DNA of 28,658 nt from Solirubrobacteraceae bacterium (lineage in GTDB: Bacteria > Actinomycetota > Thermoleophilia > Solirubrobacterales > Solirubrobacteraceae): NCBI GenBank assembly GCA_030447005.1, contig JAUJME010000002.1, positions 1 to 28,658 on the forward strand, given 5' to 3'. The notes under the pieces were generated by a model. That model made no database searches, had not been told where the DNA came from, and saw only the letters and a list, made by a program, of their open reading frames with translations. Below are positions 1,227 through 20,375 of this stretch, piece after piece (positions within the stretch are counted from its first letter, which is position 1; the number at the start of each line of letters is the position of its first letter). The translations under genes and the position numbers were made by a program.

Positions 1227-2549
1227 CTAGAACAAGGGTAGGTCGGCGCCCGGCGGAGCGCGGCGGACCTCGACGCGGCCGTCGTGGAGCCGCACCACGA
1301 GCTCGTCGTGCTCCCCTGCGGCGGCCGCCGAGGTGACCGGCTCGCCCGCCGGCGACTCGACCAGGGCGTAGCCGCGCTCGAGCGTGCGCTGCGGGTCGTG
1401 GGCGGCGAGGAGGCGGGCGAGGCGGTCGAGATCCTGCCCGCGCCGCGCCGTCAGGGCGCTCGCCTCGGCGCGGCGGGCGACGGTCTGGAGGCGGGCCTGC
1501 GCGCGGGCGCGCTCGTCGCCGACGATCCTCCGGGTGCTCGCCCGCAGCTCGCGCGTCTGCTGGTGCAGCCGCGCGCGGTGGCGGCCGACGTGGTGGGCGG
1601 GCGCGCGCGAGAGCTGCGCCAGCGTCCGCGCTCGAGAGACGATCGCCCGCTTGCCCTGCGCCTCCAGGCGGGCGCCGAACCCGAGCAGCTGCTCGCGCCC
1701 TGCGGCGCAATCGACCGGCACCGCGGCCTCGGCGGCGTGCGTCGGCGTCGAGCAGGCGACCGCGGCGACGTCGTCGATGAGCGTGCGGTCCGTGTGGTGG
1801 CCGACCGAGGCGATGACGGGGACGCGGAGCATCGCCACCGTCCGGCACAGCGTCTCGTCGCAGAAGGCGAACAGGTCGGCCAGCGATCCGCCGCCGCGCG
1901 CGACGACGATGACCTCGACCGCCTCGCAGGCGGCGAGATCCTGGAGCGCGCGGGTGATCGCGGGTGCGGCGTGGCGGTCCTGCACGGGGGCGAACGCCCA
2001 GACGACGCGGCCCGCCCACCCGCGCCGGCGCAGCCCGGCGAGGACGTCGTCGCGGGCCTTGCCGCCCTCGCCGGTCACCACGCCGATCGTGCGCGGGAGC
2101 GCCGGGATGGCCAGCCGCTTCTGTGGCTCGAGCAGCCCCTCGGCGGCCAGCGTGCGCCGCAGCCGCTCGAGCTGGGCCAGCAGGTCGCCCTCCCCGGCCA
2201 CGCGCAGGGCCGTGACCGCGAAGGAGAACGACGGCGAAGAGGTGCGCGAGCCGGGATAGAAGTCACAGCCGCCGGCCGCCACCACCTGCACGCCGTCGCC
2301 GATCCCCTCGCCGAGGCCGAGCGCGTCGAAGTCCTTGCGCCACATGGAGCACGGCAGCGCGCCGTCGGCGTCGCGCAGCTCGAACCAGACCTTCGCCCGA
2401 CCCGCCTTCAGCCCCCAGATCTCGCCGAAGACCTGGACGCGCGTGAAGGTGCGCAGGCGGTCGCGCAGGCGCGCCGCGTAGTCGCCGACGGGCCACGGGC
2501 CGGTCAGCGAGGAGCCCGGGATGCCGTCGGGTCGCGCCGCGCCGCTCAT
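1227..2549 (-). CDS. xseA: Exodeoxyribonuclease VII large subunit
   Basis: This 440-residue protein is the catalytic and DNA-binding subunit of exonuclease VII. Residues about 18-120 form the OB-fold (VFGEIWGLKAGRAKVWFELRD region). The catalytic domain follows, with LPRTIGVVTGEGGKARDDV (about 151-169), VVARGGGSLADLFAF (206-220) and ASVGHHTDRTLIDDVA (237-252). The middle of the last motif is usually GHETD; here it is GHHTD, with the conserved His and Asp kept. A long Arg/Ala-rich coiled coil and a C-terminal region with ERGYALV follow. The ATG at 2549 has no Shine-Dalgarno, but a TACGCT hexamer lies 9 bases upstream, suggesting a leaderless message. It heads the xseA-xseB pair. Confidence 0.95.
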   Translation of the reverse strand: MSGAARPDGIPGSSLTGPWPVGDYAARLRDRLRTFTRVQVFGEIWGLKAGRAKVWFELRDADGALPCSMWRKDFDALGLGEGIGDGVQVVAAGGCDFYPGSRTSSPSFSFAVTALRVAGEGDLLAQLERLRRTLAAEGLLEPQKRLAIPALPRTIGVVTGEGGKARDDVLAGLRRRGWAGRVVWAFAPVQDRHAAPAITRALQDLAACEAVEVIVVARGGGSLADLFAFCDETLCRTVAMLRVPVIASVGHHTDRTLIDDVAAVACSTPTHAAEAAVPVDCAAGREQLLGFGARLEAQGKRAIVSRARTLAQLSRAPAHHVGRHRARLHQQTRELRASTRRIVGDERARAQARLQTVARRAEASALTARRGQDLDRLARLLAAHDPQRTLERGYALVESPAGEPVTSAAAAGEHDELVVRLHDGRVEVRRAPPGADLPLF

Positions 2550-2837: not shown

Positions 2838-3956
2838 CTACGCGGTCGCCGCGGTCCGCACGAGCGCCTGCGCGAGCAGGGGGCCGGCGACCGGCGACGC
2901 CGGCGACTCGGGGTGCCACTGGACGCCGAGGGCGAACCGGCGCGACGGCACGTCGATCGACTCGACGACGCCGTCGGGGCTGACCGCCGTCGGCCGCACG
3001 CCGCGGCCGAGCCGGCGGACCGCCTGGTGATGGGCGCCGCCGACCGCCGCGCCCCGGCCGATGATGGCGCGCAGCGGGCTGCCATTGCCCGTGCGGATGG
3101 GGTGGGACTCCTCGGTCGGATGGGCGATCGAGCTCGAGTCGATGTCCTGCCACAGCGATCCGCCGAGCGCGACGTTGAGCAGCTGGCTGCCGCGGCAGAC
3201 GCCGACGATCGGGAGGTCGTCGGCGAGCGCCTGGCGGATGAGTCCCAGGTCGCGCCGGTCGCGCTCGAGGTCGGCGCGGTGGACGAGCGGCGAGAGCGCC
3301 TCGCCGTAGAGCTGCGGGTGCAGGTCGTGCGTGCTGCCGCTGAGCACGAAGGCGTCGGCCCCCGCCAGCGAGAGGCCGGCCTGCGCCGGATCGAGCACCG
3401 TGACGTCGCCGCCGGCCGCCTCGAGCCAGCGCTCGCAGGTGTCGGGGGCGCCATCGGCGACCAGCAGCGCGACGCGCGGGCGGCTCCCGCCGGCCGTGTC
3501 GCGCATCGCCGCGGCGAAGGCGCGGCGCGCCCGCGAGAGGCGCTTGCGGGCGGTCGCCTCCCCGACGGCCAGCAGGTCGGCGATCTCGCGGTGGGTCAGG
3601 CCCGCCTGGAAGCGGAGGAGCAGCAGCAGCCGCTCGTGGGCGCTCAGCCGCGCGAGCGCCTCGCGGGTGTGCAGCGCCGTATCGGGGTCGGCGCCGGCCG
3701 CCGCGTCGAGCGCCTCGTCGAGGGGCGCCGCGCCCCGGATGCGCCGGCGGCGCAGCTCGTCGAGCCCGAGGTTGGTGGCCGTCCGGTTCAGCCAGGCGCG
3801 CAGGTGGTCGTCGGAGGCGTCGCGCGGCGCGCTCGACCAGGTCCGGGCCAGCGCTTCCTGGCAGAGGTCCTCGGCGGCGTGCTCGTCGCCGAGCATCCGG
3901 CCGAGGCGGCGCCTGAGCGGGCCGGCCTGCTCCTCGACGAGCGCCTCGAACGTCAT
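2838..3956 (-). CDS. ECF sigma factor fused to class I glutamine amidotransferase (peptidase C26-like)
   Basis: This single 372-residue ORF joins two complete domains. Residues about 5-75 are sigma-70 region 2 (DEHAAEDLCQEALART, then LRAWLNRTATNLGLDELRRR). Residues about 95-148 are region 4 (LSAHERLLLLLRFQAGLTHREIADLL). Residues 159-372 resemble gamma-glutamyl-GABA hydrolase (PuuD/C26). They contain SGSTHDLHPQLYGE, the nucleophile elbow GVCRGSQLLNVALGG (Cys254), AHHQAVRRLG, and GVQWHPE with His348 and Glu350, so the triad is intact. No stop separates the halves. The internal ATG at 3506 has no Shine-Dalgarno. I chose the ATG at 3956 because AGAGG lies 9 bases upstream; an ATG at 3977 is also in frame. 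The gene follows the EamA transporter by 23 bases. No anti-sigma gene is adjacent, so the amidotransferase may be the sensory or controlling part (inference). Confidence 0.88.
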   Translation of the reverse strand: MTFEALVEEQAGPLRRRLGRMLGDEHAAEDLCQEALARTWSSAPRDASDDHLRAWLNRTATNLGLDELRRRRIRGAAPLDEALDAAAGADPDTALHTREALARLSAHERLLLLLRFQAGLTHREIADLLAVGEATARKRLSRARRAFAAAMRDTAGGSRPRVALLVADGAPDTCERWLEAAGGDVTVLDPAQAGLSLAGADAFVLSGSTHDLHPQLYGEALSPLVHRADLERDRRDLGLIRQALADDLPIVGVCRGSQLLNVALGGSLWQDIDSSSIAHPTEESHPIRTGNGSPLRAIIGRGAAVGGAHHQAVRRLGRGVRPTAVSPDGVVESIDVPSRRFALGVQWHPESPASPVAGPLLAQALVRTAATA

Positions 3957-3979
3957 GCCGGGAATCCTCTCAGCCATGG

Positions 3980-4903
3980 TCAGCCACGCCGGGTGAGCGC
4001 GACGCCGGCGAGACACAGCGCGCCGCCGGCCACCGCGATGAACGGAGGGGTCTCGGCGAGCAGCGCCCACCCGAGCAGCACGGCGAGGGGCGGGACGAGG
4101 TAGGTCAGGGCGCCCATCCGCCCGGCGGTCGTCCGCGAGAGCGCGTACGCCCAGGTCGTGAAGGCGATCGCCGTCGGGAAGACGCCGAGGTAGGCCATCC
4201 AGGCCACCGCGCCGGCGCCGGCCGAGCCGAGCTCCTCGAGCAGGCGCGGGGCGAACGGCAGGCACGCGGCGGTCCCCACCAGGCAGGCGACGAAGGTGAC
4301 GTCGAGCGGCGAGTGACGGGCGAGCGCGGGCTTCTGGGCCACCACGCCCGCCGCGTAGAGGACCGCCGCGATCAGGCAGAGCGCCGCGCCCCAGCTCGCC
4401 TCGGTGCCGCGCGACCGGGTGGCGAGGCCGATCACGATCGCGCCGGCGAACGCGACCGCGAGCCCGAGCACGAGGCTGCGTGGGAAGCCCTCGCGCAGCA
4501 CGACGCCGGCCAGCAGCGCGATGAGGATGGGCCCGACGTTGACGAGCATCGCGGCGGTGCCCGCGTCGACGCGCTGCTCGCCCTCGTTGAGCACCACGTT
4601 GTAGGCGCCGAACCACAGCAGCCCGCAGAGCGCCACCGCCCCGAGGTCGCGCCGCGAGAAGCGGCCGATCGAGAGCGGGCCGCGACGGAGCACGAGGAGG
4701 AGGCCGAGGACGACCGAGGCGATCACGAGCCGCCCGAGCGCGAGCGGCCCGCCGCCGAGATCCTCGCCGGCGGCGCGGATGCCGACGAACGCCGAGGCCC
4801 ACAGCACGACGGTGGTCACGCCGGCCAGCAACGCCGGTACGTGCTCGGGGACCGGCAGGACGCGCCGGCTGGGGCGCTCGGCGGGGAGGACGGTCGCGCT
4901 CAT
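3980..4903 (-). CDS. EamA-family (DMT superfamily) transporter
   Basis: This 307-residue membrane protein has about ten hydrophobic segments arranged as two EamA repeats, each of five helices. Typical elements are VVLWASAFVGIRAAG near the N-terminus, LVIASVVLGLLLVL, GTAAMLVNVGPILIALLAG in the first repeat, and YLVPPLAVLLGWALLAETP in the second. Family members export amino acids, nucleosides or other small metabolites; the substrate here cannot be read from sequence. A short charged N-terminus (about 25 residues) precedes the first helix. It lies upstream of the sigma-amidotransferase gene on the same strand, 23 bases apart, and diverges from the GNAT gene across 64 bases. The ATG at 4903 is the only sensible start. 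Confidence 0.9.
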   Translation of the reverse strand: MSATVLPAERPSRRVLPVPEHVPALLAGVTTVVLWASAFVGIRAAGEDLGGGPLALGRLVIASVVLGLLLVLRRGPLSIGRFSRRDLGAVALCGLLWFGAYNVVLNEGEQRVDAGTAAMLVNVGPILIALLAGVVLREGFPRSLVLGLAVAFAGAIVIGLATRSRGTEASWGAALCLIAAVLYAAGVVAQKPALARHSPLDVTFVACLVGTAACLPFAPRLLEELGSAGAGAVAWMAYLGVFPTAIAFTTWAYALSRTTAGRMGALTYLVPPLAVLLGWALLAETPPFIAVAGGALCLAGVALTRRG

Positions 4904-4967
4904 GCCCGTTCAACGCACGGGCGGCGGCGGATGTGACCGGACGGGCGCCGACAGGCAGACTCCCCGC

Positions 4968-7886: not shown

Positions 7887-7892
7887 TACATT
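7887..7892 (+). promoter_or_regulatory. Putative -10 element for the riboswitch transcript
   Basis: TACATT lies a few bases before the first conserved part of the c-di-AMP riboswitch, so a start near 7898-7900 would include the whole aptamer. No convincing -35 is seen. Confidence 0.4.
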
Positions 7893-7897
7893 GCACC

Positions 7898-8024
7898 CCA
7901 TCGCCGAGGCACCGGACCGAATCCGGTGCACGGGGGACCCAGGTTGTTTGGGGCGAATCACGCTCAGTGCAGCGTGAGGCGCGAGCTCTTTCAGCGCCAG
8001 CCCGTCAGCTAACCCCGTAGGCAG
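7898..8024 (+). promoter_or_regulatory. ydaO/yuaA c-di-AMP riboswitch
   Basis: The conserved blocks of the ydaO/yuaA aptamer appear in order: a perfect 8-bp hairpin with GCACCGGA at 7909-7916 and TCCGGTGC at 7922-7929, CGGGGGACCCAGG from 7931, GGGGCGAATCA near 7950-7960, a CACGCT/AGCGTG hairpin at 7959-7976, and GTCAGCTAACCCCGTAGGC at 8004-8022. The aptamer ends just before a GAAAGAGG Shine-Dalgarno (8027-8034) and the TTG start of an NlpC/P60-type wall hydrolase, the classic actinobacterial target. In this class ligand binding normally lowers expression, so high c-di-AMP should repress the hydrolase. No separate terminator hairpin lies between aptamer and start, so control may act on translation (inference). 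Confidence 0.93.
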
Positions 8025-8043
8025 ACGAAAGAGGTCGATTGCT

Positions 8044-8703
8044 TTGCGGGCTCGGAGCCTGGTCGTTTCCCTATTGGTGTTCCCCTGCCTTGCCACGGCC
8101 GCGGAGGCCCAAACCGGGCCGTCCAACGGCGGCGCGCAATATGGCGCGCAGGACAAGCCTCAGCCCCAGGCCCCCGCGCAGCCCGGCGGCGCGCAGCCCG
8201 GCCAGCCCGGCACGGCGCCCGTCCCCGGCTCGCTGACGCCGGTCGTCCCCGGCACCAAGGCCAGGCTGCTGCCCGACGGCACCGCCGCCGCTCCCGCGGC
8301 CGCCCCGCTGCCCGTCCAGCAGGCGATCTGGGCCGCCAACCGGATCCAGACCAAGCCGTACCGCTACGGCGGTGGCCATGGGAAGGTCGAGGACTCGGGC
8401 TACGACTGCTCCGGCACCATCTCCTATGCCCTCCACCACGCCGGCCTGCTCAAGACGCCGCTGGACTCCTCGAGTTTCATGTCCTGGGGCCAGGCCGGCC
8501 GCGGCGCCTGGATCACCGTCTACACGAACCCGGGCCACGCCTACGTGGTGATCGCCGGGCTCCGTCTCGACACGAGCGCCGCCTACGTCCGTAGCTCCCG
8601 CCGCACGCGCCGCTCCGCCCGCGCCTCCGAGCGCGGGCCGCGCTGGCGCCCCTCGGCGCGCCCCTCGCGGGGCTTCCGGGCGCGCCACCCCCTCGGTCTC
8701 TAG
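8044..8703 (+). CDS. Secreted NlpC/P60-type peptidoglycan hydrolase
   Basis: This 219-residue protein has a signal peptide (VVSLLVFPCLATAAEA, cleavage expected near residue 22), then a Pro/Gln/Gly-rich linker to about residue 88. The hydrolase domain follows, with YRYGGGHGKVEDSGYDCSG (Cys122), DSSSFMSWGQAGRG, and NPGHAYVVIAGLRLDTS (His165). These give the Cys-His pair of the family. The third polar residue is not obvious. The tail is Arg/Ser-rich and ends RHPLGL. The TTG start at 8044 is chosen because GAAAGAGG lies 9 bases upstream and the signal peptide follows at once. It acts outside the cell on peptide cross-links and is placed under c-di-AMP control by the riboswitch. Confidence 0.88.
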   Translation: MRARSLVVSLLVFPCLATAAEAQTGPSNGGAQYGAQDKPQPQAPAQPGGAQPGQPGTAPVPGSLTPVVPGTKARLLPDGTAAAPAAAPLPVQQAIWAANRIQTKPYRYGGGHGKVEDSGYDCSGTISYALHHAGLLKTPLDSSSFMSWGQAGRGAWITVYTNPGHAYVVIAGLRLDTSAAYVRSSRRTRRSARASERGPRWRPSARPSRGFRARHPLGL

Positions 8704-8781: not shown

Positions 8782-9561
8782 GTGCCAGGTCTCGGAGGAC
8801 GAATGTCAGTCGTCTTCAAGTCGAAGATCAACAAGCTGCTCGACAAGGCCGAGGACCCCTCGGAGACCCTCGAGTACTCTTACGCGAAGCAGGTCGAGCT
8901 GCTGCAGAACGTCAAGAAGGGCATCGCCGATGTCGTGACGTCCAAGAAGCGGCTCCAGATGCAGGCGCAGAAGCTCCAGCAGCAGGTCGTCAAGCTCGAC
9001 ACCCAGGCGCGCCAGGCGCTCGCGCAGGGCAACGAGGAGCTCGCCCGCACGGCGCTCGAGCGCAAGCAGTTCGCCCAGACCGAGCTGCAGACCCTCGACC
9101 AGCAGGTCGCCGAGCTCGAGAACCAGCAGCAGCAGCTCATCGACAAGGAGCAGAAGCTCCGCGGCAAGATCGACCAGTTCCGCACCAAGAAGGAGGTCAT
9201 CAAGGCGCAGTACTCCGCCGCCGAGGCCTCCGTGAAGATCTCTGAGGCCGCCACGGGGGTCGGCGAAGAGATGGCCGACGTGGGGCTCGCGATGCAGCGC
9301 GCGCAGGACAAGACCGAATCGATGCGGGCCCGCGCGGGCGCGATGGAGGAGCTCGAGGCCGCCGGTGCCTTCGACGACAACCTCGCGCTCGGCTCCGGAG
9401 AGGACGACATCGACCGCCAGCTGCGCGAGCTGACCTCGGGCAGCCAGGTCGACGACGACCTCGCGAAGATGAAGGCCGAGCTCGGCCAGGGATCGGCGCC
9501 GCAGCCGGCCGGCGAGCTGGGTGCGGGCGAGGCCGCCCCGGGCCAGGAGAAGCCGGCGTGA
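8782..9561 (+). CDS. pspA: Phage shock protein A (PspA/IM30) homologue
   Basis: This 259-residue, almost wholly helical protein is a PspA/IM30 member, a peripheral membrane protein that assembles on damaged membrane. The opening FKSKINKLLDKAEDPSETLEY is the family's N-terminal signature, followed by a long coiled coil rich in Gln, Lys and Glu (about 30-180), a Glu/Ala segment, and a flexible acidic tail ending in PGQEKPA. Two starts are credible. The GTG at 8782 has a perfect AGGAGG 5 bases upstream, and the ATG at 8803 has GGAGG 4 bases upstream and gives a form 7 residues shorter. I give the longer form. Its TGA overlaps the GTG of pspAA. Confidence 0.95.
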   Translation: MPGLGGRMSVVFKSKINKLLDKAEDPSETLEYSYAKQVELLQNVKKGIADVVTSKKRLQMQAQKLQQQVVKLDTQARQALAQGNEELARTALERKQFAQTELQTLDQQVAELENQQQQLIDKEQKLRGKIDQFRTKKEVIKAQYSAAEASVKISEAATGVGEEMADVGLAMQRAQDKTESMRARAGAMEELEAAGAFDDNLALGSGEDDIDRQLRELTSGSQVDDDLAKMKAELGQGSAPQPAGELGAGEAAPGQEKPA

Positions 9562-9836
9562 TCGTCCGCATCGCCACCGAGGACCAGTACCGCCTGCCCG
9601 ACGAGGACGCCCAGCGCCTCAACGACCTCGACAACGAGGCCGTCGCCGCCGTGGAGGCGGGCGACGAGGAGCGCTTCCACGAGCTCTTCGACCAGATGCT
9701 CGAGCTCGTGCGCTCCGACGGCGAGCGGCTCGAGGAGGACGACCTCGAGGGCTCCGACGTGATCATCCCGCCGCCCGACGTCTCCTTCGACGAGGCGAAG
9801 AACGAGTTCACGGGCGAGGGCCTGATCCCGGACTGA
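9558..9836 (+). CDS. pspAA: PspA-associated protein PspAA
   Basis: This 92-residue protein begins IVRIATEDQYRLPDEDAQRLNDLDNEAVAAVEAGD, the pattern of the small PspAA partner found after pspA in actinobacteria and archaea. It closes with a DVIIPPPDVSFDEAK stretch and GEGLIPD. It is acidic and soluble-looking, presumably cytoplasmic, and thought to regulate or assist PspA. The GTG start overlaps the pspA TGA as GTGA, so translation is coupled. The next gene starts 2 bases after its stop. Confidence 0.9.
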   Translation: MIVRIATEDQYRLPDEDAQRLNDLDNEAVAAVEAGDEERFHELFDQMLELVRSDGERLEEDDLEGSDVIIPPPDVSFDEAKNEFTGEGLIPD

Positions 9837-9838
9837 GG

Positions 9839-10810
9839 ATGCCCGTCCTGAGTGCGGCGGACGTCGAGGCCGCCGCGCGCCGCCTGGCGGGCGTCGCGCA
9901 CCGCACGCCCGTGCTGCGCTCGCGCGCGCTCGACGAGCGCACGGCCGCGGCGGTCGTCCACCTCAAGGCCGAGCCCTACCAGCGCACGGGGTCCTTCAAG
10001 TTCCGCGGCGCCTACAACGCGGTCAGCTCGCTGGGCGAGGAGGCGCGGCGGGGCGGCGTCGGGGCGGTCTCCTCCGGCAACCACGCGCAGGCGGTCGCGC
10101 TCGCCGCCCGGCTGCACGGCGCGCCGGCGACGATCCTCATGCCCGAGGACGCGCCGGCCTCCAAGCTCGCCGCCACCCGCGGCTACGGCGCCGAGGTGGT
10201 CACGTACGACCGCTACGCGGAGGACCGCGAGGACGGCTTCGCGGCGCTCTGCGCCGAGCGCCGCCTCAGCCCGGTGCACCCCTACGACGATCCCGCGGTG
10301 ATGGCGGGCCAGGGGACGGTCGCGCTCGAGTTGCTCGAGGACGCCGGCGAGCTCGACGTCCTCGTCGTCTGCCTGGGCGGCGGCGGGCTGCTGTCGGGCT
10401 GCGCGACCCTGGCCAAGGCGCGGCTGCCGGGCATCCGCGTGGTCGGCGTCGAGCCGGAGGCGGGCGACGACTTCCGCCGCTCGATGGCCGCGGGCGAGCG
10501 CGTCCGGGTCCCCGTGCCGCGCACGATCGCCGACGGCCAGGCCGTCCCCATGCCGGGGGAGCTGACCTTCCCGGTCGTCCAGGAGCTCGTCGACGAGGTG
10601 GTGACGGTCTCCGACGACGAGATCCGCGCGGCGATGCGCCTGCTGTTCGAGCGGATGAAGATCGTGGTGGAGCCGAGCGGGGCGAGCGGGCTCGCAGCGC
10701 TGCTGGCGGGACGGGTGGAGGGCTCGGCGGGGGCGCGCGTCGGGGTGACGCTGTCGGGCGGCAACGTCGACCCGGAGCGCTTCGGCCGGGTCGTCGCCGG
10801 CGGGACCTAG
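9839..10810 (+). CDS. Threonine/serine dehydratase-family PLP enzyme
   Basis: This 323-residue fold-type II PLP enzyme has the Schiff-base lysine in GSFKFRGAYN (Lys54), the cofactor-ring SSGNHAQAVALAA motif (78-90), the phosphate-binding GGGGLLSG loop (about 180-187) and TLSGGNVD near the end. It lacks the C-terminal regulatory ACT-like domain of biosynthetic threonine deaminase, so it is the short, catabolic type. Threonine dehydratase, threo-3-hydroxyaspartate dehydratase or serine racemase all fit; sequence alone does not choose. The ATG at 9839 lies 2 bases after the pspAA stop, making it the third gene of the pspA operon. Its TAG overlaps the pspAB stop on the opposite strand at CTAG. 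Confidence 0.88.
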   Translation: MPVLSAADVEAAARRLAGVAHRTPVLRSRALDERTAAAVVHLKAEPYQRTGSFKFRGAYNAVSSLGEEARRGGVGAVSSGNHAQAVALAARLHGAPATILMPEDAPASKLAATRGYGAEVVTYDRYAEDREDGFAALCAERRLSPVHPYDDPAVMAGQGTVALELLEDAGELDVLVVCLGGGGLLSGCATLAKARLPGIRVVGVEPEAGDDFRRSMAAGERVRVPVPRTIADGQAVPMPGELTFPVVQELVDEVVTVSDDEIRAAMRLLFERMKIVVEPSGASGLAALLAGRVEGSAGARVGVTLSGGNVDPERFGRVVAGGT

Positions 10811-11382
10811 ATCGGGATCCCCCAGAGCGGGAACCAGCGCTCGAGCTCGGGTTCGACCGGCAGCTCGACGCCGATCTGCGCGCGCAGCCGCAGCTCGCGC
10901 TCGTTGTCGCGCTGCTGCTCGCCGCCGCTCGGGACGAAGGGGTAGAACGCGCCCCGCTTGTAGTTGTAGATCCAGTAGACGGGCTTGCCGGCCTCGTCGC
11001 GGAAGGCGAACACGGCGGCCAGCAGGCGGTCGCCGTAGCCGCCGGCCTCGAGCGCGGTGGAGACGGCGTTGATCCCGACCACCACGTCCTCGAAGTCGCG
11101 GTCGGCGAGGACCATCCAGCGGTAGCCGAAGGAGTCGTCCTCGCGCGTGACGGCCGTGCCCGTCTCCTCGCCCGTCCCGCGCACGACCTCCTCCATGTCG
11201 CGCACGATCTGGTCGAAGTCGGCGGTCGCCAGCGGCTGGAAGACGATCCCCGCCTTGCCCGAGCTCTTCAGGCCGAGCTCGAGCTCGAGGGTCACCGCCG
11301 CGGTGCTCATGGCGAAGACGCGATCGGTCGGCACCGGCTGCTTGAGCTTGCGCCGGCCCGTGATGACGTCGAAGAGGCCCAT
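10807..11382 (-). CDS. pspAB: PspA-associated protein PspAB
   Basis: This 191-residue protein matches the PspAB family. It begins MGLFDVITGRRK, contains FAMSTAAVTLELELGLKSSGKAG, DDSFGYRWMVL and INAVSTALEAGGYGDRLLAAVFAF, and has the family-specific C-terminal pattern YNYKRGAFYPFVPSGGE, RDNERELR, then LPVEPELERWFPLWGIP. No membrane segment is present. It is coded 9 bases after htpX on the same strand, an arrangement known in actinobacteria where htpX and pspAB form one unit, and it converges with the pspA operon. It is presumed to take part in envelope-stress handling together with PspA and HtpX; its molecular activity is not established. Confidence 0.88.
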   Translation of the reverse strand: MGLFDVITGRRKLKQPVPTDRVFAMSTAAVTLELELGLKSSGKAGIVFQPLATADFDQIVRDMEEVVRGTGEETGTAVTREDDSFGYRWMVLADRDFEDVVVGINAVSTALEAGGYGDRLLAAVFAFRDEAGKPVYWIYNYKRGAFYPFVPSGGEQQRDNERELRLRAQIGVELPVEPELERWFPLWGIPI

Positions 11383-16041: not shown

Positions 16042-17292
16042 ATGGCCGCCGCGACGCTCTCCGTCTACCCCGAAGCCGCCTCCGTGGCCGACGGCCGCCT
16101 GACCATCGGCGGCTGCGACGCGGTCGAGCTTTCGCGGGAATACGGAACGCCTTGCTATGTCGTGGCCGAGGACGACCTCCGCGCCCGAGCGCGGGAGTTC
16201 CGGGGCGCCCTCGACCGCCATCATCACGAGGGCCCCGGCGAGGTCTACTTCGCCTCCAAGGCGTTCCCGGCCACCGCCGTGCTCGCCCTCTTCCGCGACG
16301 AGGGGCTCGGGGCGGACGTCGCCTCGATGGGCGAGCTGCACCTCGCGCGGCGCGCCGGCTTCACCGATCGCGAGATCGTCGTGCACGGCAACGCCAAGTC
16401 GGTCGACGAGCTCGAGGCCGCCCGCGGGACGACGATCGTCGCCGACAACCTCTCCGAGCTCGGCCGCCTGGAGCGGATCCTGCGGCCCGGCGACGCCCAG
16501 CGGGTGATGCTGAGGATCACCCCGGGCGTCCAGACCGCCACCCACGCCGCGGTGGCCACCGGGCAGGCCGACTCGAAGTTCGGCTTCAACCTCGACGAGG
16601 CTCCCGAGGCGATCGAGCGCGCGCGCTCCATCCCCGGCCTCCTGCTGATCGGCCTGCACCTCCACATCGGCTCCCAGCTCTTCGATCCGGAGCCCTACCG
16701 GGAGGCGATCGCCAAGCTCGCCGGCCTCGGCGACTTCCCCGCCTACGACCTCGGCGGAGGCTTCGGCGTCGCCTACACGCCCGCGCAGCGGCCGCTGGAC
16801 TTCGACCGGCAGGTGGGCGTCATGGTCGCCGCCGCCCACGAGCACCTGGGGGCGCGCGAGAAGCCGCTCTCGATCGAGCCGGGGCGCGCGCTGGTGGCCG
16901 CCGCGGGCGTGACGCTCTACACCGTCGAGTCCGTCAAGCGCAACGTGTCGACCTGGGTCGGCGTCGACGGCGGGATGTCGGACAACCTGCGCCCGATGCT
17001 CTACGGGTCGCCCTACGTCGCCGACGTGGCCGACCGGATCGGGGGCGAGGAACGCTGCCACCTCGCCGGCAAGCACTGCGAGTCGGGCGACGTGATCGCG
17101 CGCGACGTCCTCCTCGACGACCCGCGGCCCGGCGACGTCATCGCCACGCCGGTCACCGGCGCCTACGGCCACGCGATGGCCAACAACTACAACGGCGTCC
17201 CGCGCCCGCCGGTGATCTTCTGCGCGGGCGGCAGCGCCCGGGTGGTCGTGCGGCGCGAGACGGTCGAGGACCTGCATGCCCGAGACGTTTAG
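16042..17292 (+). CDS. lysA: Diaminopimelate decarboxylase
   Basis: This 416-residue enzyme decarboxylates meso-diaminopimelate to L-lysine, the last step of lysine synthesis. It has the alanine-racemase-like barrel with the PLP lysine in VYFASKAFP (Lys73), HGNAKS, LRITPGVQTATHAAVATGQADSKFG, the HIGSQ loop, the glycine loop DLGGGFG, and the IEPGRALVA segment. The C-terminal domain has HCESGD (Cys346, from the partner subunit in the family's dimer) and GAYGHAMANNYN, which contacts cofactor and substrate. The ATG at 16042 follows a -10-like element with no Shine-Dalgarno. Its 3' end overlaps hom by 17 bases, and it begins a four-gene aspartate-family operon. Confidence 0.96.
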   Translation: MAAATLSVYPEAASVADGRLTIGGCDAVELSREYGTPCYVVAEDDLRARAREFRGALDRHHHEGPGEVYFASKAFPATAVLALFRDEGLGADVASMGELHLARRAGFTDREIVVHGNAKSVDELEAARGTTIVADNLSELGRLERILRPGDAQRVMLRITPGVQTATHAAVATGQADSKFGFNLDEAPEAIERARSIPGLLLIGLHLHIGSQLFDPEPYREAIAKLAGLGDFPAYDLGGGFGVAYTPAQRPLDFDRQVGVMVAAAHEHLGAREKPLSIEPGRALVAAAGVTLYTVESVKRNVSTWVGVDGGMSDNLRPMLYGSPYVADVADRIGGEERCHLAGKHCESGDVIARDVLLDDPRPGDVIATPVTGAYGHAMANNYNGVPRPPVIFCAGGSARVVVRRETVEDLHARDV

Positions 17293-18499
17293 GGTCGGGC
17301 TGCTGGGCCACGGGACGGTCGGGGCGGCGTTCGAGCGCCTCCTCGCCGAGCGCGCCGACGCGGTGGCCGCCACCACCGGGCTGCGCCCCGAGCTCGCCGG
17401 CGTGCTCACCCGCTCAAGTGGCGACTTCGAGGAGATCCTCGAGGGCTCGGACCTCGTCGTCGAGCTCATCGGGGGGATCGACCCCGCGCGCGACTACGTC
17501 CTGCGGGCGATGCGGGCCGGCCGCCACGTCGTCTCGGCCAACAAGAAGCTGATCTCCCGGCACGGCGAGGAGCTGTGGCGCACCGCGCGCGAGCACGGCG
17601 TCCAGCTGCGCTTCGAGGCGGCGGTGGCCGGCGTGGTGCCGGTGATCCGCGTCGTGCAGGAGTCGCTGGCCGCCGCCCACATCGAGCGCATCCACGGGAT
17701 CGTCAACGGCACGACCAACTTCATCCTCACCGAGATGGCCCGCACCGGCGCCTCCTACGCCGACGCGCTCGCCCAGGCGCAGGAGCTCGGCTACGCGGAG
17801 GCCGACCCGACCGACGACGTCTCGGGCGCCGACGCCGCCGCCAAGATGGCGATCCTCGCGCGGCTCGCCTTCTCCACGCCGGTCACCCTCGACCAGGTCC
17901 CCCACGAGGGGATCGAGCGGATCACCGCCGAGGACATGGCCTACGCGCGCGAGCTGGGGCTCGGGCTCAAGCTGATCGGGACGGCGGAGCGCGTCGACGG
18001 CGGGATCTCCGTCCGCGTCCATCCCGCCTTCCTCTACGCGGGCCACCCGCTGGCCTCCATCCACGGGCCGTTCAACGCGGTGACCGTCGAGTCCGACGCG
18101 ATCACCGAGATCACCATGTCCGGCCCCGGCGCGGGGGGCCCGCAGACCGCGAGCGCCGTGCTCGGCGACGTCATCAGCGCGATGATCCCGCCCGCCTCGA
18201 CCCCCGAGACCACCGAGGACCTCCCGGTGGTCAAGGACGTCGAGTCCTCGTTCTACCTGCACCTCGAGGTCGCCGACCGGCCGGGCGTCCTCGCCCAGGT
18301 CGCCGAGGTGCTGGGGATGCAGGGCGCGTCGGTGCGGTCGGTCGTCCAGCGCGGGCTGGGTGAGAACGCGCGGCTCGTGATGGTCGTGCACCCGCTGCCC
18401 GAGTCGCGCTTCTTCGCCGCCGTCCGGCTGATCGGGCAGCTCGACTTCATGCGCTCCCCGCCGCGCGCCATCCGGGTGATCGAGGAGGAGTTCCTGTAA
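17276..18499 (+). CDS. hom: Homoserine dehydrogenase with ACT domain
   Basis: This 407-residue enzyme reduces aspartate semialdehyde to homoserine with NAD(P)H. The N-terminal Rossmann domain opens with VGLLGHGTVGAAF. SANKKLISRHG (Lys90/Lys91) and GIVNGTTNFILTEMA mark the catalytic domain, and AEADPTDDVSGADAAAKMAILAR carries the conserved lysine Lys190. Residues about 325-405 form an ACT domain (HLEVADRPGVLAQVAEVLG), the usual site of threonine feedback inhibition. The ATG at 17276 lies inside lysA, giving a 17-base overlap, and the TAA overlaps the thrC ATG by one base. The order lysA-hom-thrC-thrB links lysine and threonine output. Confidence 0.96.
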   Translation: MPETFRVGLLGHGTVGAAFERLLAERADAVAATTGLRPELAGVLTRSSGDFEEILEGSDLVVELIGGIDPARDYVLRAMRAGRHVVSANKKLISRHGEELWRTAREHGVQLRFEAAVAGVVPVIRVVQESLAAAHIERIHGIVNGTTNFILTEMARTGASYADALAQAQELGYAEADPTDDVSGADAAAKMAILARLAFSTPVTLDQVPHEGIERITAEDMAYARELGLGLKLIGTAERVDGGISVRVHPAFLYAGHPLASIHGPFNAVTVESDAITEITMSGPGAGGPQTASAVLGDVISAMIPPASTPETTEDLPVVKDVESSFYLHLEVADRPGVLAQVAEVLGMQGASVRSVVQRGLGENARLVMVVHPLPESRFFAAVRLIGQLDFMRSPPRAIRVIEEEFL

Positions 18500-19527
18500 T
18501 GGCTCTCGAGCGCGTCGGGCTGATCGAGCGGTTCCGCGACCGGCTGCCGTTCGCGCCGGGTGACCCCGTCGTCTCGCTCGCCGAGGGCTCGACGCCGCTC
18601 GTGCACGCCGCGCGCATCTCCGAGCGCGTCGGGGCCGACGTGTGGCTGAAGATCGAGGGCGCCAACCCGACCGGCTCGTTCAAGGACCGCGGGATGACGT
18701 GCGCGGTCTCGGCGGCCCGGCGGGAGGGCTCGGAGGCGGTCATCTGCGCCTCGACGGGCAACACGGCGGCGAGCGCGGCGGCCTACGCGGCGCGCGGCGG
18801 CCTGCGCGGTGCGGTGATCGTTCCCGAGGGCAAGATCGCGACGGGCAAGCTCGCCCAGGCGCTCATGCACGGAGCGCGGGTGGTCGCGCTGCGCGGGAAC
18901 TTCGACCAGGCGCTCGCCCTTGTCCGCGAGCTCGTGCAGCGCCACCCGATCTCGCTCGTCAACTCGGTCAACGAGTTCCGCCTCCAGGGCCAGAAGACCG
19001 CCGCGTTCGAGCTCGCCGAGGACCTCGGTGACGACGCCCTCGACGCCCTCTGCATCCCCGTCGGCAACGCCGGCAACGTGACCGCCTACTGGCAGGGCTT
19101 CGGCGAGCTCGGGCTCGCGCCGCGGATGCTCGGCTTCCAGGCGGAGGGCTCGGCGCCGCTGGTCCTCGGCGCCCCGGTCGAGAACCCCGACACGGTCGCC
19201 AGCGCGATCCGGATCGGCAACCCCGCGCGCTGGGAGGAGGCGATGGGCGCGATGACCGGCTCCGGCGGCGCGATCCGCGCGGTCAGCGACGAGGAGATCC
19301 TCGACGCCTACCGCTTCCTGGCCGCCGGCGAGGGCGTCTTCTGCGAGCCGGCGTCGGCCTCGAGCGTCGCCGGGCTGCTCAAGTACGGCGCCGACGGTGC
19401 GGAGCGGCTCGTCTGCGTCCTCACCGGCCACGGGCTCAAGGACCCGCAGACCGCGCTCGGCCACGCGGGCTCGGTGATCCCGTGCGAGCCCGACATCGCC
19501 GACGTCGAGCGCGCGGTCCTGGGTTGA
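18499..19527 (+). CDS. thrC: Threonine synthase
   Basis: This 342-residue fold-type II PLP enzyme converts O-phosphohomoserine to threonine. The Schiff-base lysine is in NPTGSFKDRGM (Lys62). STGNTAASAAAYAARGG binds the cofactor, VNSVNEFRLQGQKTAAFEL and IPVGNAGNVTAYWQGF are highly typical of the short, Bacillus-type ThrC, and CVLTGHGLKDP lies near the end. The length fits the short class, without the extra domains of the yeast and E. coli type. The ATG at 18499 overlaps the hom stop (TAATG), and its TGA overlaps the TTG of thrB. Confidence 0.96.
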   Translation: MALERVGLIERFRDRLPFAPGDPVVSLAEGSTPLVHAARISERVGADVWLKIEGANPTGSFKDRGMTCAVSAARREGSEAVICASTGNTAASAAAYAARGGLRGAVIVPEGKIATGKLAQALMHGARVVALRGNFDQALALVRELVQRHPISLVNSVNEFRLQGQKTAAFELAEDLGDDALDALCIPVGNAGNVTAYWQGFGELGLAPRMLGFQAEGSAPLVLGAPVENPDTVASAIRIGNPARWEEAMGAMTGSGGAIRAVSDEEILDAYRFLAAGEGVFCEPASASSVAGLLKYGADGAERLVCVLTGHGLKDPQTALGHAGSVIPCEPDIADVERAVLG

Positions 19528-20375
19528 ACCGCCGCCGCGTCGTCCGGGTCCCCGCCTCCTCGGCCAACCTCGGGCCCGGCTTCGACGCGCTCGCCGCCGC
19601 GCTCTCGCTCCACGTCGAGGTCGAGGTTGAGGAGACGGGCCACTTCGGCGTGGAGACGGACCTGCGGATCGCCCGCGACCGGCGCAACCTCGCGGTGCGC
19701 GGCTTTGCGCGGCTGCACGCGGTCGACCACCTCACCTTCCGCATCCGCTCCGACGTCCCGCTCTCGGGCGGGCTGGGGACGAGCGCGGCGGCCTACGTCG
19801 CCGGCCTGCTCGCCGCCGACTCGATGTTCGAGCTCGACGCCGACCTGCTCGCCCACGCCACCGCGCTCGAGGGCCATCCCGACAACGTCGCGGCCGCGCT
19901 GCTCGGCGGGTTCGTCATCTGCGCCGACGGCCAGGCCACCCGCTTCGACGGGCCGGCCGGGCTCGAGGCGATCCTCGTCGTCCCGCACCGCCCGGTCCGC
20001 ACCGCCCAGGCCCGCGCGGCGCTGCCGCCCGAGGTGCCGATGGGCGAGGCGGTCTTCAACGTCGCCCACGCCTCGCTGCTCACGCTCGGGCTGGCCCGCG
20101 GCGACTTCGACCTCATCGCCCGGGGCCTCCAGGACCGCCTCCACCAGCCGCGGCGCGCCAGCCTCTATCCGCGGTCGGCAGAGCTCGTCGAGCGGGCCCC
20201 CGAGCTCGGCGCGCTCGGGGCCACCGTCTCCGGCGCCGGCCCGACCGTCCTGCTGTGGACGCACTACGAGGCCACGGGCGCCGTCCTCGGCCGCGCCCGC
20301 GAGCGCGCCGCAGGCTGGGCTGACGTCCTGCACGTCCCGTTCGAGCCGATGGGCGCGGACGTGCGGGCGCTGTAG
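19524..20375 (+). CDS. thrB: Homoserine kinase
   Basis: This 283-residue GHMP kinase phosphorylates homoserine to O-phosphohomoserine, the substrate of ThrC. It opens with RVPASSANLGPGFDALAAAL, and the ATP-binding GHMP motif is DVPLSGGLGTSAAAYVAG (about 77-94). Further marks are EGHPDNVAAALLGGF and GATVSGAGPTVLLW. I start it at the TTG at 19524, whose bases overlap the thrC stop as TTGA; no ATG or GTG lies close enough to give a complete first strand. This is the end of the operon. It converges with the L,D-transpeptidase gene, 12 bases apart. Confidence 0.93.
   Translation: MNRRRVVRVPASSANLGPGFDALAAALSLHVEVEVEETGHFGVETDLRIARDRRNLAVRGFARLHAVDHLTFRIRSDVPLSGGLGTSAAAYVAGLLAADSMFELDADLLAHATALEGHPDNVAAALLGGFVICADGQATRFDGPAGLEAILVVPHRPVRTAQARAALPPEVPMGEAVFNVAHASLLTLGLARGDFDLIARGLQDRLHQPRRASLYPRSAELVERAPELGALGATVSGAGPTVLLWTHYEATGAVLGRARERAAGWADVLHVPFEPMGADVRAL

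Follow-up and report, generated by a model that had tools for sequence, protein, structure and literature searches.

How is an ECF sigma factor controlled when it shares a single polypeptide with a glutamine amidotransferase? Such a protein is encoded in the window, by which is meant the whole 28,658-nucleotide stretch of Solirubrobacteraceae DNA analysed here. The preliminary description claimed that the sigma factor and the amidotransferase lie in one open reading frame, and this is borne out by the open frame and by Pfam; the strand, which it did not give, is the minus strand. The fusion gene (2838..3956), identified from its frame, its Pfam matches and its homologues, runs from 3956 to 2838 with no internal stop and encodes 372 residues. 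The sigma half (residues 1-150; 3507..3956, minus strand) contains regions 2 and 4, as judged from Pfam, the NCBIfam sigma70-ECF model and aligned conservation. The amidotransferase half, of the C26 (PuuD-like) type (residues 163-372; 2838..3470, minus strand), is recognised by Pfam, by alignment and by a fold match. The ATG at 3956 has GAGAGGA 8 nt upstream and corresponds to the start in most aligned homologues; an alternative in-frame ATG at 3977 adds 7 residues and gives a 379-residue form.

Pfam matches on the 379-residue form are to Sigma70_r2 (residues 13-79, 3.3e-13) and Sigma70_r4_2 (residues 105-153, 1.5e-10), both above the curated cut-offs, and to Peptidase_C26 (residues 196-357, 3.7e-45; 154.8 bits against a cut-off of 20.5). 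Regions 2 and 4 are thus present and no region 3 family was found by Pfam, which is the composition of an ECF factor, and the score for TIGR02937 (NCBIfam sigma70-ECF) is 65.6 bits against a cut-off of 42.9. The C26 domain carries the Cys-His-Glu triad and the pocket signature of a C26 enzyme, a class I glutamine amidotransferase, and the alignment places Cys254, His348 and Glu350 exactly where they had been predicted. A fold search whose matches span residues 157-372, and which therefore bears on the amidotransferase half, gave Lin1909, SpuA and PuuD as the closest solved folds.

Is the fusion a real protein, or the product of an assembly error or of two split genes? When about 5.8 billion proteins were searched and 7993 candidates scored, 1574 relatives were obtained at E<=1e-3. 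The best 120 of these 1574 all have both domains in one chain (120/120), which excludes chance or an assembly error; no split homologue is found among them. Their identity is 49-99%, and the source names include Solirubrobacteraceae, Thermoleophilaceae, Capillimicrobium, Baekduia and Conexibacter. In our reading, these names would place the window in the class Thermoleophilia. These 120 proteins were aligned with 20 genome loci and the window, and none of the 141 aligned members has a frameshift at the join. When the sigma half alone was searched against 146 genomes (E<=1e-18), the 24 matches were 23 fusion genes and one relative, a paralogue in genome G533 whose locus has no amidotransferase match. 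An artefact or a pair of split genes is ruled out by the two-domain homologues, the alignment and the sigma-half search taken together. The locus of G514, which had the appearance of a split gene, owes its apparent gap to a run of N in the G514 sequence.

With a threshold of E<=1e-45, the fusion was detected in 24 of 146 genomes of one family (19 nearly end to end and 5 partial), in 3 of 31 genomes of a second family, in 12 of 249 genomes sampled from the class and in 2 of 396 sampled from the phylum. In the class that was searched first, no match to the sigma half was found at E<=1e-25 (148 genomes). Compared with 104 stand-alone C26 domains, the amidotransferase halves from 36 fusions fall into a single clade (support 0.998), and thus point to one old fusion; the outgroup loci came from a contig scan in which 80 of 556 relatives are listed, with no fusion among the matches listed. 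The distances of the sigma and amidotransferase halves are correlated (r=0.86). Judged by these comparisons, the fusion is ancient, stable and kept as a unit.

Which half has been preserved most strictly? Mean pairwise identity among the 141 aligned fusions is 62% for region 2, 67% for region 4 and 54% for the amidotransferase. Cys254 is present in 141 of 141, His348 and Glu350 in 140 of 141, and the join measures 14-16 residues between its two flanks in every one. Two natural members, G262 (locus L136) and G514 (L220), retain Cys254 and have KPQ and QPQ, respectively, in place of HPE. The loss of His and Glu in proteins that keep the Cys favours sensing over turnover.

These observations bear on the idea that the enzyme comes first, namely that the fusion is a working hydrolase, and that the sigma half ties its production, and that of its partners, to need without any gating by the active site. 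Such an enzyme would be expected to keep the triad, as 140 of the 141 aligned fusions do, and to have a fold like that of SpuA and PuuD, to which the match is strong. However, the link is short in every aligned member (14-16 residues) and the two halves have diverged in step, which suggests mechanical coupling, and the two members without His and Glu remain fused. This explanation is regarded as unlikely. The preliminary description had suggested that the enzyme half could sense or process a gamma-glutamyl compound. Such a compound is what the family, with the folds of Lin1909, SpuA and PuuD, would lead one to expect, but the processing part may be dispensable, given the two members without His348 and Glu350.

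How might expression of the fusion be controlled? Of 20 genome loci, 18 have a bipartite, promoter-like motif, GTCCG(G/C)T-N15-CGTC, a short distance before the fusion gene; the other two have variants of it, TGTCACAA-N15-CGTT and AGTCCGGT-N15-CGTT. The motif was first spotted by eye upstream of the fusion genes of these 20 genomes and was tested afterwards. Across the 20 loci, 8-28 nt separate the end of the site from the gene start that aligns to the one in the window. The strict motif occurs 22 times in the 540,556 strand-bases of the 20 loci: 18 times at the fusion, three times before a small neighbour gene and once elsewhere (L148). Among six loci that had no part in motif discovery, the strict form is present in G458, G510, G514, G764 and G832, and the CGTT variant in G520; the locus of G516 lacks its 5' part and is outside the count. 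GAAC-type and TGTCA-type promoters, which had been guessed for an ECF factor, were found in 0, 1 and 0 of 21 upstream regions and showed no enrichment.

ECF41 factors, which have a fused regulatory domain, use the promoter TGTCACA-n16-CGTC (PMC3426412). The layout of the fusion motif is close to it, so that the motif is a likely promoter of the ECF type and autoregulation would be its natural reading. In the wider genomes the signal is more diffuse. A stricter pattern occurs in 16 of 24 fusion genomes versus 21 of 122 other genomes in one family (Fisher 2.8e-6), a comparison that partly restates the presence of the motif at the fusion, since in 11 of the 16 genomes the site is the self-promoter. 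With a looser pattern, 113 matches are obtained in 25 fusion genomes versus 40 for a reversed control, and most genome-wide sites are therefore unexplained or due to chance.

Could the motif belong to another sigma factor, the sigma half of the fusion being inactive and serving some other role? The related stand-alone sigma gene in G533 provides a candidate reader. Against this, conservation within the fusion is highest in regions 2 and 4, ahead of the amidotransferase, and the motif tracks the fusion gene. We consider this explanation extremely improbable.

Which other genes might be under the control of the motif? From 42 sites and the 113 looser matches, 17 regions were chosen (L203-L218 and L222), mostly with self-promoter-like sequences. 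In 8 of the 17, a called gene begins no more than about 35 nt downstream of the site; the genes are four hydrolases, two small ORFs of 68-70 residues, one cupin (G517) and one ORF of 209 residues. In the remaining nine, the site is inside a gene or further away. The four hydrolase genes are related to each other and of the alpha/beta type, the assignment having been made by Pfam in one of the four, and the motif is found 10-11 nt before their called starts (G529, G531, G533 and G535). All four fusion genomes that have the hydrolase gene have the motif in front of it, compared with none of four genomes in which no fusion was detected (G553, G603, G609 and G626, where the G626 upstream region is only 83 nt long and the G553 homologue has 34% identity). 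The sites before the small ORFs of 68-70 residues are near 2021-2046 (minus strand) in L203 and near 2060-2085 (minus strand) in L204; their spacers are nearly identical and both contain GTCTCAGAC.

In the window itself the situation is less clear-cut. An EamA-family transporter gene (3980..4903, minus strand; Pfam EamA, 1.8e-42) precedes the fusion with a gap of 23 nt, and downstream there is a 74-residue ORF on the opposite strand with no Pfam match. No good motif is found just before the start of the fusion in the window, the best scores there being -6.1 and -5.7. A weak candidate promoter, CGTCCGGT-N16-CGTG (4916..4943, minus strand), is located 12 nt before the EamA ATG. Among 31 start positions in the window it scores highest, with 7.5 against 2.0 for the next, and it ranks fifth of 114,504 scored placements, with four higher-scoring places elsewhere in the window. 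The site falls below the relatives' own promoters (9.3-26.2), its spacer is 16 and not 15, and it has CGTG and not CGTC. With the 15-spacer pattern and three mismatches, the window contains 9 matches versus 21 expected by chance, and none is at the CGTCCGGT site. An EamA gene also adjoins the fusion in L219 (by Pfam) and in L137 (by eye). Taken together, the gene order and the candidate site suggest, with moderate confidence, that EamA and the fusion form a probable autoregulated transcription unit.

Elsewhere in the window, a c-di-AMP riboswitch (RF00379) is found at 7892-8038 on the plus strand (73.5 bits; gathering threshold 38). It is directly followed by an ORF (8044-8703) whose match to NlpC/P60 is partial and sub-threshold and whose tail looks frame-shifted. 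The region 8803-11382 contains a PspA/IM30 gene with the PspA-associated PspAA adjoining it and PspAB 1 kb further. A compact run at 16042-20375 (plus strand) has matches to a diaminopimelate/ornithine-type decarboxylase, a homoserine dehydrogenase, a PLP enzyme and a GHMP kinase, and can be read as resembling a lysine-threonine pathway cluster.

Does the fusion have a partner protein? An operon partner conserved over all members was rejected, as the neighbours vary over 21 contexts (the window and 20 loci); in the clade L143-L149, the neighbours that are kept look, on inspection by eye, like moaC and a siroheme-type dehydrogenase gene. A recurrent companion belongs to a small family of 96-144 residues, present in 0-5 copies per genome, which looks like half a GNAT domain; none of seven members has a Pfam match. 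Its gene adjoins the fusion in 8 of 20 genomes; with G832 and G516, where it adjoins the fusion or shares a short locus with it, the total is 10 of 26.

It can be argued from this that the small half-GNAT-like protein is the true regulator, an anti- or co-sigma factor for which the amidotransferase half is the docking surface. Besides its presence with the fusion in 10 of 26 genomes, the small gene overlaps the fusion by 4 nt, stop to start, in four genomes, and has its own copy of the motif in three loci (L134, L138 and L140). Adjacency is seen in 8 of the 12 genomes that have the family versus 0.01 expected by chance, a figure obtained with a profile built from seven of the adjacent copies. 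However, in the remaining 16 of the 26 genomes, some of which have short flanks, the gene was not found next to the fusion, the window contains no above-threshold match to the family, and the genomes carry further copies at other places. A regulatory role of this kind is judged highly unlikely. The absence of an adjacent anti-sigma gene, as originally claimed, holds for the window, where neither flanking gene (EamA upstream, the 74-residue ORF downstream) has an anti-sigma match.

We favour, with somewhat better than even confidence, a one-component autoregulated sigma switch in which the amidotransferase domain would sense a glutamyl-type compound, the ligand and the gating being predicted from sequence. 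The sigma half would read the GTCCG(G/C)T-N15-CGTC motif, and the fusion protein would thus raise its own expression. The amidotransferase half would bind a gamma-glutamyl or glutamine-like compound, and the bound ligand would alter how sigma-2 and sigma-4 are placed relative to each other and hence the engagement of RNA polymerase, in a manner likened to the C-terminal extensions that control ECF41 factors. The output of the switch appears to be small and lineage-specific, comprising the fusion itself, the half-GNAT-like protein, the hydrolase and, in the window, probably the EamA exporter. The term 'one-protein sensor-regulator', used in the preliminary description, would fit the single chain, the triad and the absent anti-sigma neighbour.

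The ligand of this switch may be bound only, or also consumed. Tentatively, and with rather low confidence, the sigma factor could be enzyme-gated: a covalent glutamyl-enzyme intermediate on Cys254, or turnover, would be the signal that decides transcription start. The KPQ and QPQ sequences of G262 and G514 would argue against a need for catalysis. If enzyme gating were true, one protein would sense, destroy and answer its own signal.

How does the fusion compare with known systems? ECF41 factors (SigJ, Ecf41Bli) have a SnoaL-like C-terminal domain, no adjacent anti-sigma gene and few targets, often next door (PMC3426412, PMC8999054). The fusion is similar in its fused C-terminal domain, its absent anti-sigma neighbour and a bipartite promoter of similar form to that given in PMC3426412. 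It differs in that the C-terminal domain is Peptidase_C26, with no SnoaL family in the Pfam results, and in that the -35 part is of the TGTCCG(G/C)T type in 19 of 20 loci and TGTCACAA in L141, compared with TGTCACA. Since the SnoaL domain and the TGTCACA -35 element are both absent, the fusion is not an ECF41 factor. Other one-component ECF factors carry TPR (ECF42), Cys-rich (ECF238/CorE), SnoaL (ECF56) or membrane (ECF52) extensions; WD40 and zinc-finger extensions are also described, and for most groups with built-in regulatory domains the signal is not known (PMC8999054). ECF42, ECF238/CorE, ECF56 and ECF52 share built-in control with the fusion, and no amidotransferase extension is named in the parts of PMC8999054 that deal with these groups.

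On the enzyme side, PuuD, SpuA and Lin1909 have the fold and catalytic triad in common with the fusion, and their solved chains are without a sigma half. The fusion scores 73.5 bits with the PuuD equivalog model NF008471, far below the cut-off of 266, and is therefore not a PuuD equivalog. AraC-type regulators with a DJ-1/PfpI (GATase-1-like) domain provide another case of an amidotransferase-like sensor in a transcription regulator; they differ from the fusion in having another DNA-binding part and another GATase-like family.

No account of a sigma-amidotransferase fusion was found in searches of open-licence papers. ECF factors with regulatory extensions are known, and the C26 amidotransferase would be a new kind of extension, although the 2021 ECF classification may already contain such a group. 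For the class of enzymes to which the added domain belongs, structures have been solved and the chemistry is known. Together with a likely promoter, this makes the ligand, the gating and the targets directly testable in a small purified system. If the proposed switch is correct, the fusion would add to these known systems a defined example in which a domain from a metabolic enzyme controls promoter choice via a sigma factor.
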